NCBI GenBank assembly: GCA_017512365.1
Contig: JAFWGQ010000069.1
Coordinates: 27,110 to 91,109 of the forward strand
Direction: 5' to 3'
From: Mogibacterium sp.
GTDB taxonomy: Bacteria; Bacillota; Clostridia; Peptostreptococcales; Anaerovoracaceae
Length of the DNA stretch: 64,000 nt
The translations under genes were made by a program, and so were the position numbers. Positions within the stretch are counted from its first letter, which is position 1. Every line of letters begins with the position of its first letter. The notes below the pieces were generated by a model that was not told the DNA's origin, searched no databases, and was given only the letters and a program-made list of their open reading frames with translations. Shown one piece after another: positions 30,140 through 59,472 of the stretch.

Positions 30140-30395
30140 GTGTACCACTTCCTGAATTGCCTACTGACTGTACACACAATGGCCCTGCCACTCACTTCGA
30201 CGTAGTCTAATTCAGTACATTCTGTGTACACTACTTCTCTGCATCGACAAGATGTACACATTTTTCAGAAAAAACAGTGTACCATCCTTCGCCAACCAAC
30301 CATTTTGTACACATATTGGAGGTATTTATGGACATATTCAGAGATCAGATAGACAGAATTGTGTACGAGCAGAAAAAGTTGCTAGAAGTGTACAC
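30140..30395 (+). repeat. Four phased GTGTAC/GTACAC site pairs at the nuclease gene
   Basis: GTGTAC and its inverse GTACAC occur as pairs starting at 30140/30170, 30224/30254, 30277/30307 and 30361/30390, offsets of 30, 30, 30 and 29 bp. Three pairs lie upstream of the nuclease start and the fourth is inside its first 25 codons, where TTGTGTAC and GTACACAA make 8-bp inverted copies. The intervening bases are unrelated between pairs. The geometry equals that of the array at 58.35-59.0 kb. Confidence 0.8.
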
Positions 30396-31179
30396 AAATG
30401 AGTATAGCCGTAACTATGAGCCTGATGACGGAACACATCTAGTGTGCTGCAGAAACAACGGAAGAGATACTTTTTATCGTGCATACAGGGAGAAGGGCAG
30501 ACGCATCAGGAAGAGTTTAAGTAAAGACCCAGATGCAATCAGAGTCCTTGCCAGGAAAGAGTATCTCAGGGTAGTGATCCCGGCCTTGAAAAACAATGTG
30601 GAAATATTTGACACATCCTGCGCTGGCCTGAAGGATCTGGGGTTTGAAACGATAATGTCCCAGATGTCCGGTTCATACAGAAAACTGCCGGCGGAACTCT
30701 TCTTTTCAAAGGAAGTCGCAGGTGTTGACTGCCTGTCAGGGGAAAATGAGGACAGGATCAGGAGACACCGGGAATGGGCCGCCGAGCCGTATGAGAAAAG
30801 CGACTATATGCCTGAACATCGGCGCTTCATGACATCGGCCGGATTCAGGGTAAGATCCAAATCCGAGCAGCACATAGTGGAGCAGCTCGTGAACTACGGG
30901 ATCCCCTTCAGGTATGAGCAGGTCATACATATCAACAACAAAAGATATTCGGCAGATTTCACGTTCCGTGACAGGATCGGCGAGCTGTTCTACTGGGAGC
31001 ATGCAGGTATGATGGATGTTCCGAAATATGTGGACGGTTATCACCGCAAGATGGATGCCTTTGAAAAGATAGACATAGTGCCGTGGAAGAATCTGCTCAT
31101 CACTTACGATATCGATGGCGTCATCAATGTTCCGATGGTCAAGAGCATCATCGAGCATGATGTGATACCGAGGCTGTAG
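30328..31179 (+). CDS. PD-(D/E)XK-like nuclease with phased sites in its promoter and coding start
   Basis: A 283-residue protein of unknown biological role. Residues 175-262 look like a PD-(D/E)XK nuclease core: E180 in RSKSEQHIVEQL, D210 in YSADFTF, and E224-H225 in FYWEHAGMMD where E-x-K is usual, followed by NLLITYD. The N-terminal 170 residues are basic and unassigned. ATG at 30328 with GGAGG 5 nt upstream is preferred to an open frame from 30277. Three GTGTAC pairs precede the gene, one lies within codons 11-23, and a GC-rich hairpin repeat starts right after the stop. It may act on, or be regulated through, these sites; no mobility gene is adjacent. Confidence 0.7.
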   Translation: MDIFRDQIDRIVYEQKKLLEVYTNEYSRNYEPDDGTHLVCCRNNGRDTFYRAYREKGRRIRKSLSKDPDAIRVLARKEYLRVVIPALKNNVEIFDTSCAGLKDLGFETIMSQMSGSYRKLPAELFFSKEVAGVDCLSGENEDRIRRHREWAAEPYEKSDYMPEHRRFMTSAGFRVRSKSEQHIVEQLVNYGIPFRYEQVIHINNKRYSADFTFRDRIGELFYWEHAGMMDVPKYVDGYHRKMDAFEKIDIVPWKNLLITYDIDGVINVPMVKSIIEHDVIPRL

Positions 31180-31294
31180 CCGCTCGCGCTCCCGGGCGCT
31201 TGCGGGGACCGGCAGCCGGTCGACGCACGCCCTGCAGTTGCCCGGACGGGCAGAGCAGGCCCCGCCGGTCAACGCGGGTCGCCCGGGCCGGTCC
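31180..31294 (+). repeat. GC-rich structured repeat, copy R1
   Basis: About 115 bp starting right after the nuclease stop. It shares CGCTC..GCGCTTGCGGGGA, the central TGCCC..GGGCA hairpin and CCCCGCCGGTCA-CGCGGGTC with the copies at 58241-58345 and 59050-59162. Its outer arms are GGACCGGC (31206-31213) and GCCGGTCC (31287-31294), which pair perfectly; the other copies have GGATCGCC and GGCGATCC, changed at both strands, so base pairing is preserved. Confidence 0.75.
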
Positions 31295-31296
31295 GT

Positions 31297-55033: not shown

Positions 55034-57595
55034 ATGATCAAGAGAAGGTTCGCTGCACTTATGTTTTCACTCGTTCTTACGCTGACGATGATGCCGCTGG
55101 CACCGTTTGATGCGTTTGCAGCCGGGGAAGGCAGTAACGATGAGGTATTACAGGAAATTGCCCGGCAGATGCAGGATGAAGACGCCGATCCGTTTGCGTT
55201 CAGAGGAAAGCTCGGAAAGCTCGGGGCTAGATCAGTGTCTGATCCCCGCTTCGATCTGAGAAATGTAAACGGCGAAAACTATGTGACGCCGGTAAAATTT
55301 CAGAATCCGTTCGGCACATGCTGGGGCTTTGCTGCCATAGCAGCAGCTGAGACCAGTATACTCGGCAATGAAGCTGTAAGGGGAGCGCACACTGCGGACT
55401 CGCTGGATCTGTCCGAAAAGCATCTGGCATGGTTCACCTACCAGCCGATAAAAAATGAGAGCAATCCGCAAAATGGCGAGGGAGCATATTTTACCGGCAG
55501 AGGCTCGGGAATAATGAATGTCGGCGGATTCCCGTTCTTCGGGACATCACTCTTCGCAAGCGGAGCGGGACCGGTCCTTGAGGACCTGGATGAGGCGCTG
55601 GAATATCACGGAAAAGAAAAGAAAATACAACAAAAAGACGGAGTCGATTATTGTTACAGTTCTGATGATGACTGGTCGCTGCCTGACGAGGACAGATTCC
55701 TGCAGTCCTTCAGGCTCAAGGAATCGTATATATTGCCTACGCCTGCAAATAAGACAGGCTCTAAGCGCACGGCTGCCATCAACGCCATCAAGGAGCAGCT
55801 TGAAAACAAGCGCGCTGTGTCGATCGGTTACTGTGCAGATACAAGCTTGCCGGGAGATGCAGACAATCCGAAAGCAACAAAATACATAAGCCCGAACTGG
55901 GCACACTATACCTATGATGACGGCCGCGCTAACCATGCAGTCGTCATAGTAGGCTGGGACGACGAATATCCTGCGTCAAACTTCGCGCATAAGATAGCCG
56001 GTAAGGAAGAAGAAGAAGCGATGGCTCTCAGTACCCCTGAGCACAACGGAGCCTGGCTTGTGAAGAACAGCTGGGGCGATGCCAGGCGGGAGTTCCCGAA
56101 CAAGGGACCGGGCTGGGGGCTGTATGAGGGTCAGGACCAGGCTCCGAATTATGCTAAGAAAGACGCGGACGCAAAACAGACAGGTTATTTCTGGCTTTCG
56201 TATGACGACAAAAGTGTCGTCATGGTCGAGGCTCTCGACTTCGATCTGAGCAACGAAGAGAAGGACTACCTTGCATATCAGCATGACTACATGCCTGTGA
56301 GCGAAGTGGAATCGGCGTATCTGTCAGGTAAGACCAGCATGGCCAATGTATTCACCGCCGAGCTTCCGAGCGTGATAGAGCAGGTCACCTGTGAGACCAC
56401 GACGCCGGGCACAGAGGTACATTATGAAGTCTATTTCCTGGACGACGGAGCAAAGGATCCGGTCGACGGCACTAAAGTCGCCGAGATGGATGCCAAATAC
56501 AGCTACGGAGGATTCCATAAGGAAAACCTCCCTGAGCCTGTCACTGCAGCTACCGGCCAGAAGTTCTCGGTCGTGGTCACACAGAAGACGCCCGACAAGT
56601 GCTACAGCATAAGCATGCAGACGGCGTGGAACAAAACGGAATATGATGAATCCGCTTACTATAGTAACAACTACTGCAAAGGGATCATCAACGAGGGCGA
56701 GAGTCTTTTCCTGTCGGGCGGACGCTGGTATGATCTGTCCGAAGAGGCGATACAGGATCTGATGGAAGGCGATGACTGCAGGCTGCTCGATATGGATAAC
56801 TTCCCGATCAAGGTCTATGCTACCGAAGGAACAGAACCGGAGAAGCCGACAGATCCTGAGAAGCCGGCCGATCCTGAGAAGCCGGCCGATCCTGAGAAGC
56901 CGGCCGATCCTGAGAAGCCGGCCGACCGCTCTTCTCAGATAGGCGAAGACGGGACGCCGTTCGGAAGGGGCGCATCTGCAGAGGCTGCCGATTCAGCAGC
57001 GCTTGCCTGGAAGTCTGACAGCGATCCCGCAGGAACAGTTTTCGCTCCGCTCCTTCTCAGGAGCAGCAGTCAGGGAAAGAAGAGCGTGACTCTTAAATGG
57101 GCTCAGCAGAACGGAGCGGCATCCTATGTGATCTACGGCGCTGCCTCGGGCAAGTCGAATCCACTCCGGAGGATCGCAAGTATAAACAGCAACAGCTTCA
57201 AGGTTAACGATATATCCGGGTCTGCACTGAAAAAAGGGAAATACTACAAGTTCATGATAATTGCTCTTGACAGCTCTGGGAATGTGGTGTCATCATCAAA
57301 GATGATACACGCAGCTACAAAGGGCGGTAAGGTCAGCAACTACAAAAAAGTAAAGGTCACAAAACCGGGGAAGGCAAAACTGAACCTGAAGGCAGGCAAG
57401 ACGTATAAGATAAAAGCCAGAGCGAACGGATCAAAAGTAAAGAAGAAGAAAGGACTCAGATATGAGTCGACCGCTCCGGCTGTAGCGACTGTCACATCGA
57501 AGGGCAAAATTAAAGCTCTATCTGCGGGTAACTGCAGCATTCGCATCTATGCCCAGAACGGAGTATACAAGACGATAAAAATTAGGGTCAGATGA
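55034..57595 (+). CDS. Secreted papain-like (C1A) cysteine protease
   Basis: An 853-residue exported protease. Signal peptide, propeptide with FDLRNVNGENYVTPVKFQNPFGTCWGFA (catalytic Cys), then RANHAVVIVGWDD (His) and GAWLVKNSWGD (Asn). A lectin-like domain follows (about residues 400-600), then a P-E-K-P-x-D repeat linker, an FnIII-like module and a BIG2-like tail. The same layout occurs in clostridial surface C1 peptidases. No anchor motif is visible, so it is secreted or held by the tail. A peptide with a GG-type leader is encoded 25 nt downstream, so the protease could have a dedicated small partner. Confidence 0.9.
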   Translation: MIKRRFAALMFSLVLTLTMMPLAPFDAFAAGEGSNDEVLQEIARQMQDEDADPFAFRGKLGKLGARSVSDPRFDLRNVNGENYVTPVKFQNPFGTCWGFAAIAAAETSILGNEAVRGAHTADSLDLSEKHLAWFTYQPIKNESNPQNGEGAYFTGRGSGIMNVGGFPFFGTSLFASGAGPVLEDLDEALEYHGKEKKIQQKDGVDYCYSSDDDWSLPDEDRFLQSFRLKESYILPTPANKTGSKRTAAINAIKEQLENKRAVSIGYCADTSLPGDADNPKATKYISPNWAHYTYDDGRANHAVVIVGWDDEYPASNFAHKIAGKEEEEAMALSTPEHNGAWLVKNSWGDARREFPNKGPGWGLYEGQDQAPNYAKKDADAKQTGYFWLSYDDKSVVMVEALDFDLSNEEKDYLAYQHDYMPVSEVESAYLSGKTSMANVFTAELPSVIEQVTCETTTPGTEVHYEVYFLDDGAKDPVDGTKVAEMDAKYSYGGFHKENLPEPVTAATGQKFSVVVTQKTPDKCYSISMQTAWNKTEYDESAYYSNNYCKGIINEGESLFLSGGRWYDLSEEAIQDLMEGDDCRLLDMDNFPIKVYATEGTEPEKPTDPEKPADPEKPADPEKPADPEKPADRSSQIGEDGTPFGRGASAEAADSAALAWKSDSDPAGTVFAPLLLRSSSQGKKSVTLKWAQQNGAASYVIYGAASGKSNPLRRIASINSNSFKVNDISGSALKKGKYYKFMIIALDSSGNVVSSSKMIHAATKGGKVSNYKKVKVTKPGKAKLNLKAGKTYKIKARANGSKVKKKKGLRYESTAPAVATVTSKGKIKALSAGNCSIRIYAQNGVYKTIKIRVR

Positions 57596-58349: not shown

Positions 58350-59005
58350 GCGCGGTGTAATGCCAGCTCTATAGCACAGCGGATTACACCGCTTTTCCGG
58401 GATCGGGTGTAATCCAGCCGCCAGCCAGTCGTGCATTACACCCGGAGGCAGATCCAGTAACATTTGCAAGGCCCGTATCGGTAAAATGTGTATGAAACAC
58501 AGATATCCCATTGCTCATACACACAATAGATGTCATGAAAAGATCAGAGGGCTTCGGAAAGGTACGAAGTGTGTATAGATCCTATCATTTCAGGAACTCA
58601 TACACATCTTTTCTGCAAAAGCTGTGTATGACTCTTTAGAATCGGCTGGATGATACACACTTTGAATGATCTCAGGCTCCATCTCAGCGGTCAGATAGTC
58701 AAAAATGTGTATAGACAGAAGGATATCCTCTGTTTGTACACATTTTTGTCTGCCTGATCGATGAAAATGCCCATGGACAACTCCATTCTGTGTACAGGAC
58801 TGCAAACAGGCAGAAGGTCGTACACTGTTTTTTCTGAAAACTGTGTACAGCCTGCATATGCAGAGCCGTGGTGTACACAGAATACTGCAAAACGGGCTCA
58901 GTAGGGGTGGCTCGAAGGTCCATTGTGTGTACAGGTTGAGGAGCGAGCGGGATGGTGTACACAGTCTCCAGGCGACGGGGCGAGTAGGATGGTGTACACA
59001 GCACC
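58350..59005 (+). repeat. Phased array of nine GTGTA/TACAC hairpin-like units
   Basis: GTGTA at 58355, 58407, 58488, 58571, 58624, 58707, 58790, 58843 and 58927 is followed by inverted TACAC at 58385, 58437, 58518, 58601, 58654, 58737, 58821, 58874 and 58958: offsets of 30 or 31 bp in every case. A tenth GTGTACAC lies at 58992. Stems extend to 7-11 bp and change together from ATTACAC (units 1-2) to ATACAC (3-5) to TACACAT or GTACAC (6-9), so pairing is kept while sequence drifts. Unit-to-unit steps are about 53 or 83 bp. Inner 20-22 bases are unique. No ORF of note lies here. Confidence 0.85.
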
Positions 59006-59049
59006 TGAGCAAAGAGGAGCATTGAAAGCGGTAAATACCTTCACATGCC

Positions 59050-59162
59050 GCTCGCGCTCCATTGCGCTTGCGGGGATCGCCGGCCGGCCGACGCTCGCTC
59101 TTCAGCTGCCCGGGCGGGCAGTGCAGGCCCCGCCGGTCAGCGCGGGTCGTCCGGGGCGATCC
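59050..59162 (+). repeat. GC-rich structured repeat, copy R2
   Basis: A plus-strand copy. GGATCGCC (59074-59081) pairs with GGCGATCC (59155-59162); CCGGCCGAC pairs with GTCGTCCGG at 8 of 9 positions; CTGCCC-GGGC-GGGCAG forms the inner hairpin. About 85% or more of its positions agree with R1 and R3 by eye. Confidence 0.75.
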
Positions 59163-59233
59163 GCAGCAGCAGAAAAGATCAAGAAAAAGCCCGGGCCTCC
59201 TGACTTGAAGCCTGGACCTTGTCTGCGACCTAT

Positions 59234-59360: not shown

Positions 59361-59472
59361 TCCTGCGCAGCTCAACACGCGGACGCTTCGTTTATTATCC
59401 TGCGCATCTCAGCACGCGGACGCTTCGTTTATTATCCTGCGCAATTCAGCTCGCGGCCGCTTCGTTTATCTT
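59361..59472. repeat. Tandem 37-bp copies of the 3' end of the symporter gene
   Basis: CTGCGCA-CTCA-ACGCGGACGCTTCG units begin at 59361, 59398 and 59435 (period 37). The third contains the true end of the symporter gene (KINEAAAS-stop), so the other two are duplications of the gene end, like those at the ESS transporter near R1. Confidence 0.7.

Follow-up and report, generated by a model that had tools for sequence, protein, structure and literature searches.

The locus and its features

The window analysed here is the whole stretch of 64,000 nucleotides, and its contig (C43) belongs to a 74-contig, 2.46-Mb assembly with a completeness of 92.9%. Inverted pairs of the words GTGTA and TACAC occur at two places in it, namely around the start of a gene for a putative nuclease and in a longer array enclosed by a 116-nt inverted repeat. 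The features are listed below; pairs and arms are given without a strand.

30140..30175, nuclease-linked pair 1, from the pair search
30224..30259, nuclease-linked pair 2, from the pair search
30277..30312, nuclease-linked pair 3, from the pair search
30328..31179, + strand, nuclease gene, 283 aa; start codon inferred from homologues, the longest listed ORF starting at 30277
30361..30395, nuclease-linked pair 4, within the gene at codons 12-23, VYEQKKLLEVYT; 33 of 74 homologues have a pair in the same position
31180..31295, + strand, third copy of the 116-nt repeat, 85% identical to 59047-59163 and immediately 3' of the nuclease stop codon
58240..58355, + strand, left copy of the GC-rich 116-nt inverted repeat, 104/116 complementary; its final base coincides with the start of array pair 1
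58355..58962, putative orphan array of nine GTGTA-N25/26-TACAC pairs, from the sequence; chance expectation 0.02 for the window
58992..58999, extra palindromic arm GTGTACAC, with no matching arm 30 bp away, from the sequence
59048..59163, − strand, right copy of the 116-nt inverted repeat, 104/116 complementary to the left copy

The nine array pairs start at 58355, 58407, 58488, 58571, 58624, 58707, 58790, 58843, and 58927, with spacings of 52, 81, 83, 53, 83, 83, 53, and 84. Their arms are offset from start to start by 30 in six pairs and by 31 in three. The initial annotation had described nine such pairs with a 30-31-bp offset in units spaced by 53 or 83 bp, and had pointed out their likeness to the nuclease locus. 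Both descriptions hold, the nuclease locus having four pairs that start at 30140, 30224, 30277, and 30361 (spacings 84, 53, and 84), which corresponds to -188, -104, -51, and +33 relative to the start codon.

The window contains 13 GTGTA-N25/26-TACAC pairs in all, the nine of the array (58355-58962) and the four of the nuclease locus (30140-30395), whereas 0.02 are expected by chance and the maximum in 100 dinucleotide shuffles was one. When all GTGTA-to-TACAC offsets from 5 to 60 were counted across the window, 30 was found seven times, 31 six times, and 13 and 40 once each. The genome-wide search proposed earlier returned 74 pairs as opposed to four for a reversed-pattern control, which is above background. 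A chance origin of the pairs was thus rejected by the shuffles, the reversed-pattern control, and the counts of upstream pairs given below.

The arm flavour changes along the array, with GTGTAAT in the pairs at 58355 and 58407, GTGTAT at 58488-58624, and GTGTAC at 58790-58927. The pair at 58707 is a T/C hybrid with GTGTAT as its left and GTGTAC as its right arm, and its orientation is reversed in L028, a close copy of the array on contig C40. It had been claimed that the bases next to the core change together within each pair. This was examined with 72 of the genome's pairs, all but two on contig C55, of which 56 remained after exclusion of L020, L022, L024, and L028. The likeness within pairs was indeed 0.478, compared with 0.362 for arms shuffled across the genome, and none of 1000 shuffles was as high. 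However, the match within a pair (0.475) was no better than that between different pairs of the same array (0.505), and 960 of 1000 reshuffles equalled or exceeded the observed value. Pairwise co-evolution of the flanking bases was therefore rejected; the flank symmetry is an array-wide arm flavour with no pair-by-pair compensation. The related idea that each stem type belongs to a distinct nuclease paralogue in the genome is not borne out as stated, as one full copy of the nuclease was found there for several arm flavours.

In addition to L028, which has at both of its ends the 116-nt repeat, a feature absent from the initial annotation, a partial copy of the window array is present on contig C31 (L020). 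No obvious target-site duplication was seen around the window array on inspection by eye. An empty allele was sought at one site, L163 of the g44 group, where the flanks are 7-12 kb apart in the other three genomes and the site is rearranged.

Two further elements lie close to the array. A 37-nt unit in three tandem copies (100, 95, and 81% alike) is located just past it at 59361-59471 and overlaps the 3' end of a sodium:dicarboxylate symporter gene. A protein of 853 aa with papain-like, lectin-like, and Big_2 domains is encoded at 55034-57595.

The nuclease

Residues E180, D210, E224, and G227 are invariant in an alignment of 59 sequences, consisting of the window protein and 58 of 73 candidate sequences. 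The three acidic residues occur in the order of a PD-(D/E)XK nuclease, and the position two after E224 is not a lysine in the window protein. The nuclease matched none of the families in Pfam or NCBIfam, transposases included. Its C-terminal part matches the end of the PADLOC candidate PDC-S68 with an E-value of 2.2e-24, DUF790 is weakly matched by four of 23 relatives (best E 7e-5), and a PDB profile search gave a best E-value of 0.066.

Homologues were detected in 103 of 197 genomes at the family level and in 51 of 391 at the class level. The best 80 of 89 profile matches include Mogibacterium, Emergencia, Anaerovorax, Parasporobacterium, and other Clostridiales or Bacillota, many of them from rumen and gut. 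A phage or plasmid origin was considered and rejected, with two partial matches in plasmids and three in phage records (one with 81% coverage and 26% identity). Ten matches in IMG/VR cover the C-terminal domain only. Genome G410 contains nine matches, several of which consist of two profile pieces adjacent in one open frame; these are divergent multicopy relatives.

A common layout with differing arms

For comparison across the family, 74 distinct nucleases were retained from 110 loci after removal of partial starts, double hits, loci with less than 450 nt upstream, and near-identical proteins. The region from -400 to +100 of each start codon was searched for any 5-mer that makes inverted pairs at one offset. 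At least three pairs with the same arm at one offset were found upstream of 27 of the 74 genes, as opposed to 1/71 downstream, 2/70 far upstream, and 0/1480 in shuffles; the other 47 nucleases have fewer than three upstream pairs.

The pair within the gene is a recurrent element of its own. Centred at +50 nt, it matches in at least six of eight arm positions in 33 of the 74 nucleases and is absent in 41, while 21 other centres gave at most one match. Its arms show a complementarity of 0.554, which fell to 0.337 (sd 0.018) when right arms were swapped between loci, and 27 distinct left arms occur among these pairs. When the arm of the coding pair was used as a probe, 49 further upstream pairs were found in the 33 loci compared with 0.15 in shuffles, and 26 of the 33 have at least one. 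L124, probably a chance match, is among the 33 loci of this and the spacing analysis. The density of arm words per kb is 15.2 upstream, 0.5 in the gene, and 0.7 downstream, although about 6 of the upstream 15.2 arise by construction, because the coding pair defines the word.

The arms themselves vary widely and include TTGTGTAC, GGTGTG, ATTGACA, GTTGGC, GGTGACA, TTATGTAT, ATGGACA, and CAATGTCA, with TGTGTAC as the putative half-site of the window nuclease. Nucleases that resemble each other outside residues 1-30 tend to have similar arms (Mantel rho 0.307 against a permutation maximum of 0.208; n=32 with L124 left out). In the four protein pairs compared, the nuclease domain is more similar than the 160 residues at the N-terminus. 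In a correlation analysis without L124 and L127, no protein window beyond roughly the first 34 residues predicted the arm. The attempt to locate specificity residues in this way was abandoned, as only windows in the first 34 residues stood out and these are confounded by residues that the pair itself encodes.

Arms also differ at one orthologous locus. Among 11 loci compared, neighbours are common to L062, L064, and L065, and to L070 and L072. Several neighbours in the first group are 73-93% identical and the nucleases 63-74%, but one more ORF (35-65% identical) has diverged as much as the nuclease, so that fast evolution of the latter relative to its neighbours is not clear-cut. The arms are GGTGTA and GGTGCA in L062 and mostly GGTGTG in L064 and L065, while the four-pair layout is kept in all three. 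Paralogues within one genome can also differ. Three of the seven fetched from G110 (11 matches) carry the arms TTTGGAG, AGTGGA, and TTGTTGGC, and no more than two pairs were found at each of the remaining four. Of five paralogues fetched from G043 (10 matches), one has an array.

Helical phasing and RNA folding

The centre-to-centre spacings of neighbouring pairs at the 33 loci fall at 52-53, 71, 82-84, 92-94, 103, 114.5, 134-136, and 145-147, and in a single case at 9. Within the range 6-20, a period of 10.4 bp describes them best (R 0.873, n=45, related loci not being independent). The same period was obtained with one spacing per locus, from the coding pair to the nearest upstream pair (R 0.87, n=26). 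For dispersed arrays the best period was 10.2 bp (R 0.829, n=76), and the spacings in G177 are looser (R 0.71 at 10.4). Because the spacing follows the B-DNA repeat and arm identity is array-wide, these patterns favour protein half-sites on duplex DNA over the pairing of RNA stems.

RNA folding gave a mixed picture. The segment 58702-58746 folds with -23.8 kcal/mol (z -7.4), and the nuclease pairs at 30219-30264 and 30356-30400 reach z-scores of -3.2 and -4.2. The two remaining nuclease pairs fold weakly (z -0.6 and -2.0), as do two of the nine array pairs (z -0.9 and -0.5). Across 72 pairs, related copies included, the loops are somewhat more self-complementary than the sequence just outside (mean z -0.53 versus 0.11). 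No Rfam family was found in the window.

Dispersed arrays, their conservation and descent

Among 197 genomes, GTGTA pairs are clearly frequent in the window's genome only (74 against 4 in the control), followed by G028 (23/10), G190 (12/8), and G123 (11/2). GTGTC pairs stand out in only two of 30 genomes, G102 (14/2) and G177 (33/3), which also have GTGTC arms at their nucleases (L050 and L053). Similarly, 12-19 GGTGA pairs are present in four g44 genomes with GGTGACA arms at their nucleases, but this test is less clean, because sizeable counts also occur elsewhere (16 in G102, 14 in G189, 12 in G152, and 6-10 in seven other genomes). Thus, in some genomes scattered arrays use the arm of the local nuclease. 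Dispersal is not universal, as four of the five GGTGT pairs of G135 are located at its nuclease locus.

The arms appear to be still under selection. Relative to L028, the window array has changed at 2/90 arm, 28/191 loop, and 39/317 gap positions; relative to L020, the figures are 18/85, 50/171, and 80/254, a small arm advantage, and in both comparisons the arms were defined in the window, which introduces a mild bias. In orthologous arrays of other species compared with G185, where the arms were defined, 2/266 arm positions and 46/708 of the rest have changed. Fewer changes in arms were seen in 17 of 21 species comparisons, none in either in two, and more in two; the resulting p of 4e-5 is only a guide, because the comparisons overlap. 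In the two contrary cases, the arms were taken from G116 or G157 and G043 was compared (9/70 versus 12/146 and 9/70 versus 10/146).

Traces of nuclease genes were detected at several arrays. A decayed nuclease N-terminus is found at L017, L029, and L146 (tblastn E-values of 0.001, 1e-6, and 0.001), and weaker traces at L026 and L141. Therefore, at least some arrays descend from nuclease loci. The remnant at L029 has GGTGTA arms, which hints at a second nuclease lost from the window's genome. At L142, L143, and L144 the arms and a spacing of 83/53/83 are kept, while inspection by eye suggests unrelated loops. In the g44 genomes, array copies from different places resemble each other over the span between their outer arms, possibly as an effect of local alignment. 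A three-pair array unit is present as a tandem duplicate at L161 (G043) and L165 (G116) and as a single unit at the orthologous L172 (G185).

Interpretation

The arrays are most plausibly explained as cognate arrays to which nucleases of a PD-(D/E)XK-like family bind, a reading to which we assign a probability of roughly 0.6; binding, cleavage, and mobility are deduced from sequence patterns. The initial annotation had proposed a site array for related DNA-binding nucleases, and the differing arms on one layout across genomes support this proposal well. In the best reading, many family members would own a half-site, and the window array would be an orphan, composite copy with units of two or three arm flavours that have their end pairs in common.

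The half-sites would form inverted pairs about three helical turns apart, with the pairs in turn mostly 5, 8, 9, 13, and 14 turns apart. With such helical-turn spacing, an oligomer could occupy one face of the duplex from the promoter region to codon 23 of its own gene. The simplest account would be a self-binding nuclease under an eight-half-site array that covers the promoter region and the first codons. The nuclease itself would bind the arms, would repress its own gene when bound, and would normally bind without cutting. Routine cutting of its own sites is unlikely, because about 70 pairs exist in a living chromosome; how the cell tolerates about 70 sites of its own nuclease is a puzzle that the proposal raises. 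The orphan arrays derive, at least in part, from nuclease loci in which most of the gene has been lost, and the selection that still appears to act on their arms is reminiscent of the tie between REPINs and a RAYT.

A more far-reaching proposal, put forward tentatively and with somewhat less than even odds, is that the nuclease and its recognised word diverge together at each locus while the phased layout is kept, and that the nuclease maintains and spreads the orphan arrays in the manner of REPINs. If true, a PD-(D/E)XK enzyme would run a REPIN-like population in Clostridia, and the family would offer a natural code from protein sequence to DNA specificity. Dozens of nucleases and their candidate target words adjoin each other in genomes, and the specificity of protein-DNA recognition could be read from them by comparison.

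The strongest rival, albeit an unlikely one, regards the arrays as operators of a regulon in which the nuclease-like protein or another regulator controls the genes adjoining dispersed arrays. The preserved arms and 83/53/83 spacing at L142, L143, and L144 despite seemingly unrelated loops would suit it, as would the five arrays or pairs that end 18-58 nt before a start codon (L023, L025, L030, L142, and L144). However, with G000 gene calls and start codons made by codon score, as were those of the five, 15 of 23 places lie in gaps between tandem genes, 6 between convergent genes, 1 between divergent genes, and 1 in a gene, and promoters are hence not preferred. The neighbours recognised by eye (metG-tatD, pflB, ribF, and truA) look unrelated, and in G135 no dispersed array carries the arm of its nuclease.

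It is slightly less probable that the arrays are MITE-like non-autonomous elements moved by an unrelated transposase, with the nuclease as a passenger. The 116-nt inverted repeat enclosing both the window array and L028 would be expected of such elements, and the likeness of the g44 copies between their outer arms points in the same direction, with the reservation on local alignment made above. Yet the same repeat also follows the nuclease gene, the arm tracks the nuclease and not a common transposase end, and neighbours of the nuclease loci are kept among L062, L064, and L065. Furthermore, no target duplication was apparent by eye, and the single empty-allele site checked was rearranged.

A reading of the arrays as passive relics of dead nuclease loci without present function is improbable: it would account for the 5' remnants at L017, L029, and L146 and the weaker ones at L026 and L141, but not for arms that have changed less than loops in most of the comparisons made. 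Least probable of all are the transcribed hairpin RNAs with unique loops that the initial annotation had offered as an alternative, kept alive by the stable folds at 58702-58746, 30219-30264, and 30356-30400 and by loop self-complementarity, but disfavoured by the helical spacing, by arms that are common to an array and not pairwise, by the weak folds at two nuclease pairs and two of the nine array pairs, and by the lack of an Rfam match in the window.

Comparison with known systems

Operators of autoregulated toxin-antitoxin or restriction-modification controllers consist of several inverted sites that overlap the start of the controlled gene. The nuclease loci differ from these in that there is no apparent partner gene, eight half-sites extend over about 250 bp, orphan arrays exist, and the arm varies with the nuclease. 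In its nuclease-domain residues, the protein resembles DUF790/TPD, other PD-(D/E)XK nucleases, and the C-terminus of PDC-S68, none of which is known to be linked with cognate arrays. The arrays share with CRISPR short constant words and unique stretches of fixed length between them. The words, however, are inverted arms of 5-9 bp, and the stretches are inherited with the locus and show no sign of acquisition. Among ten window proteins scanned, three of them without any family, no cas family was found, in line with the earlier statement that this is not a CRISPR array.

The closest parallel is the REPIN/RAYT system. As described in PMC3116915 and PMC8049555, the RAYT gene is inherited vertically in single copy and has a palindromic repeat of its own, with one repeat class per gene; this repeat adjoins the gene and is also scattered intergenically. 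The GTAG/CGTC REP families are treated in PMC3733652. As in REPIN/RAYT, the array lies beside the nuclease gene and is dispersed intergenically in the window's genome, though not in G135. In contrast, the enzyme is PD-(D/E)XK-like, with the invariant residues E180, D210, and E224, and not a Y1 tyrosine transposase, and its sites are short half-sites, separated by about 30 bp and set in helically phased arrays of several pairs, one of which lies within the gene. Because the enzyme signature and the site layout differ, the arrays may work like a REPIN/RAYT system without being one, and would then be a second instance, unrelated to the first, of an enzyme that has a repeat population of its own.

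No literature on this nuclease or these arrays was found among open-licence PMC papers, by a search dependent on the words used. No described kind of system is known to have these parts, and within the open-licence PMC papers the system looks undescribed.

Nuclease relatives with other arrangements

Not all relatives show the layout described above. Among 21 full-length loci outside the family, none has a convincing coding pair; at least three upstream pairs are present in nine of them compared with four of 21 downstream, which is suggestive only. A separate subgroup of 13 loci (L107, L111, L114-L117, L120, L123-L126, L128, and L129) is characterised by an N-terminus similar to RIRxxLxERKxDLExEL, with no convincing in-gene pair and in no case three or more upstream pairs.

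Two loci in other families of the class carry arrays of their own before a nuclease relative. L231 (G252) has six GAATA pairs at exactly 52, perhaps as a tandem repeat. L236 (G306) has five GTACC/GGTAC pairs with an offset of 30 and spacings of 83, 73, 83, and 73.
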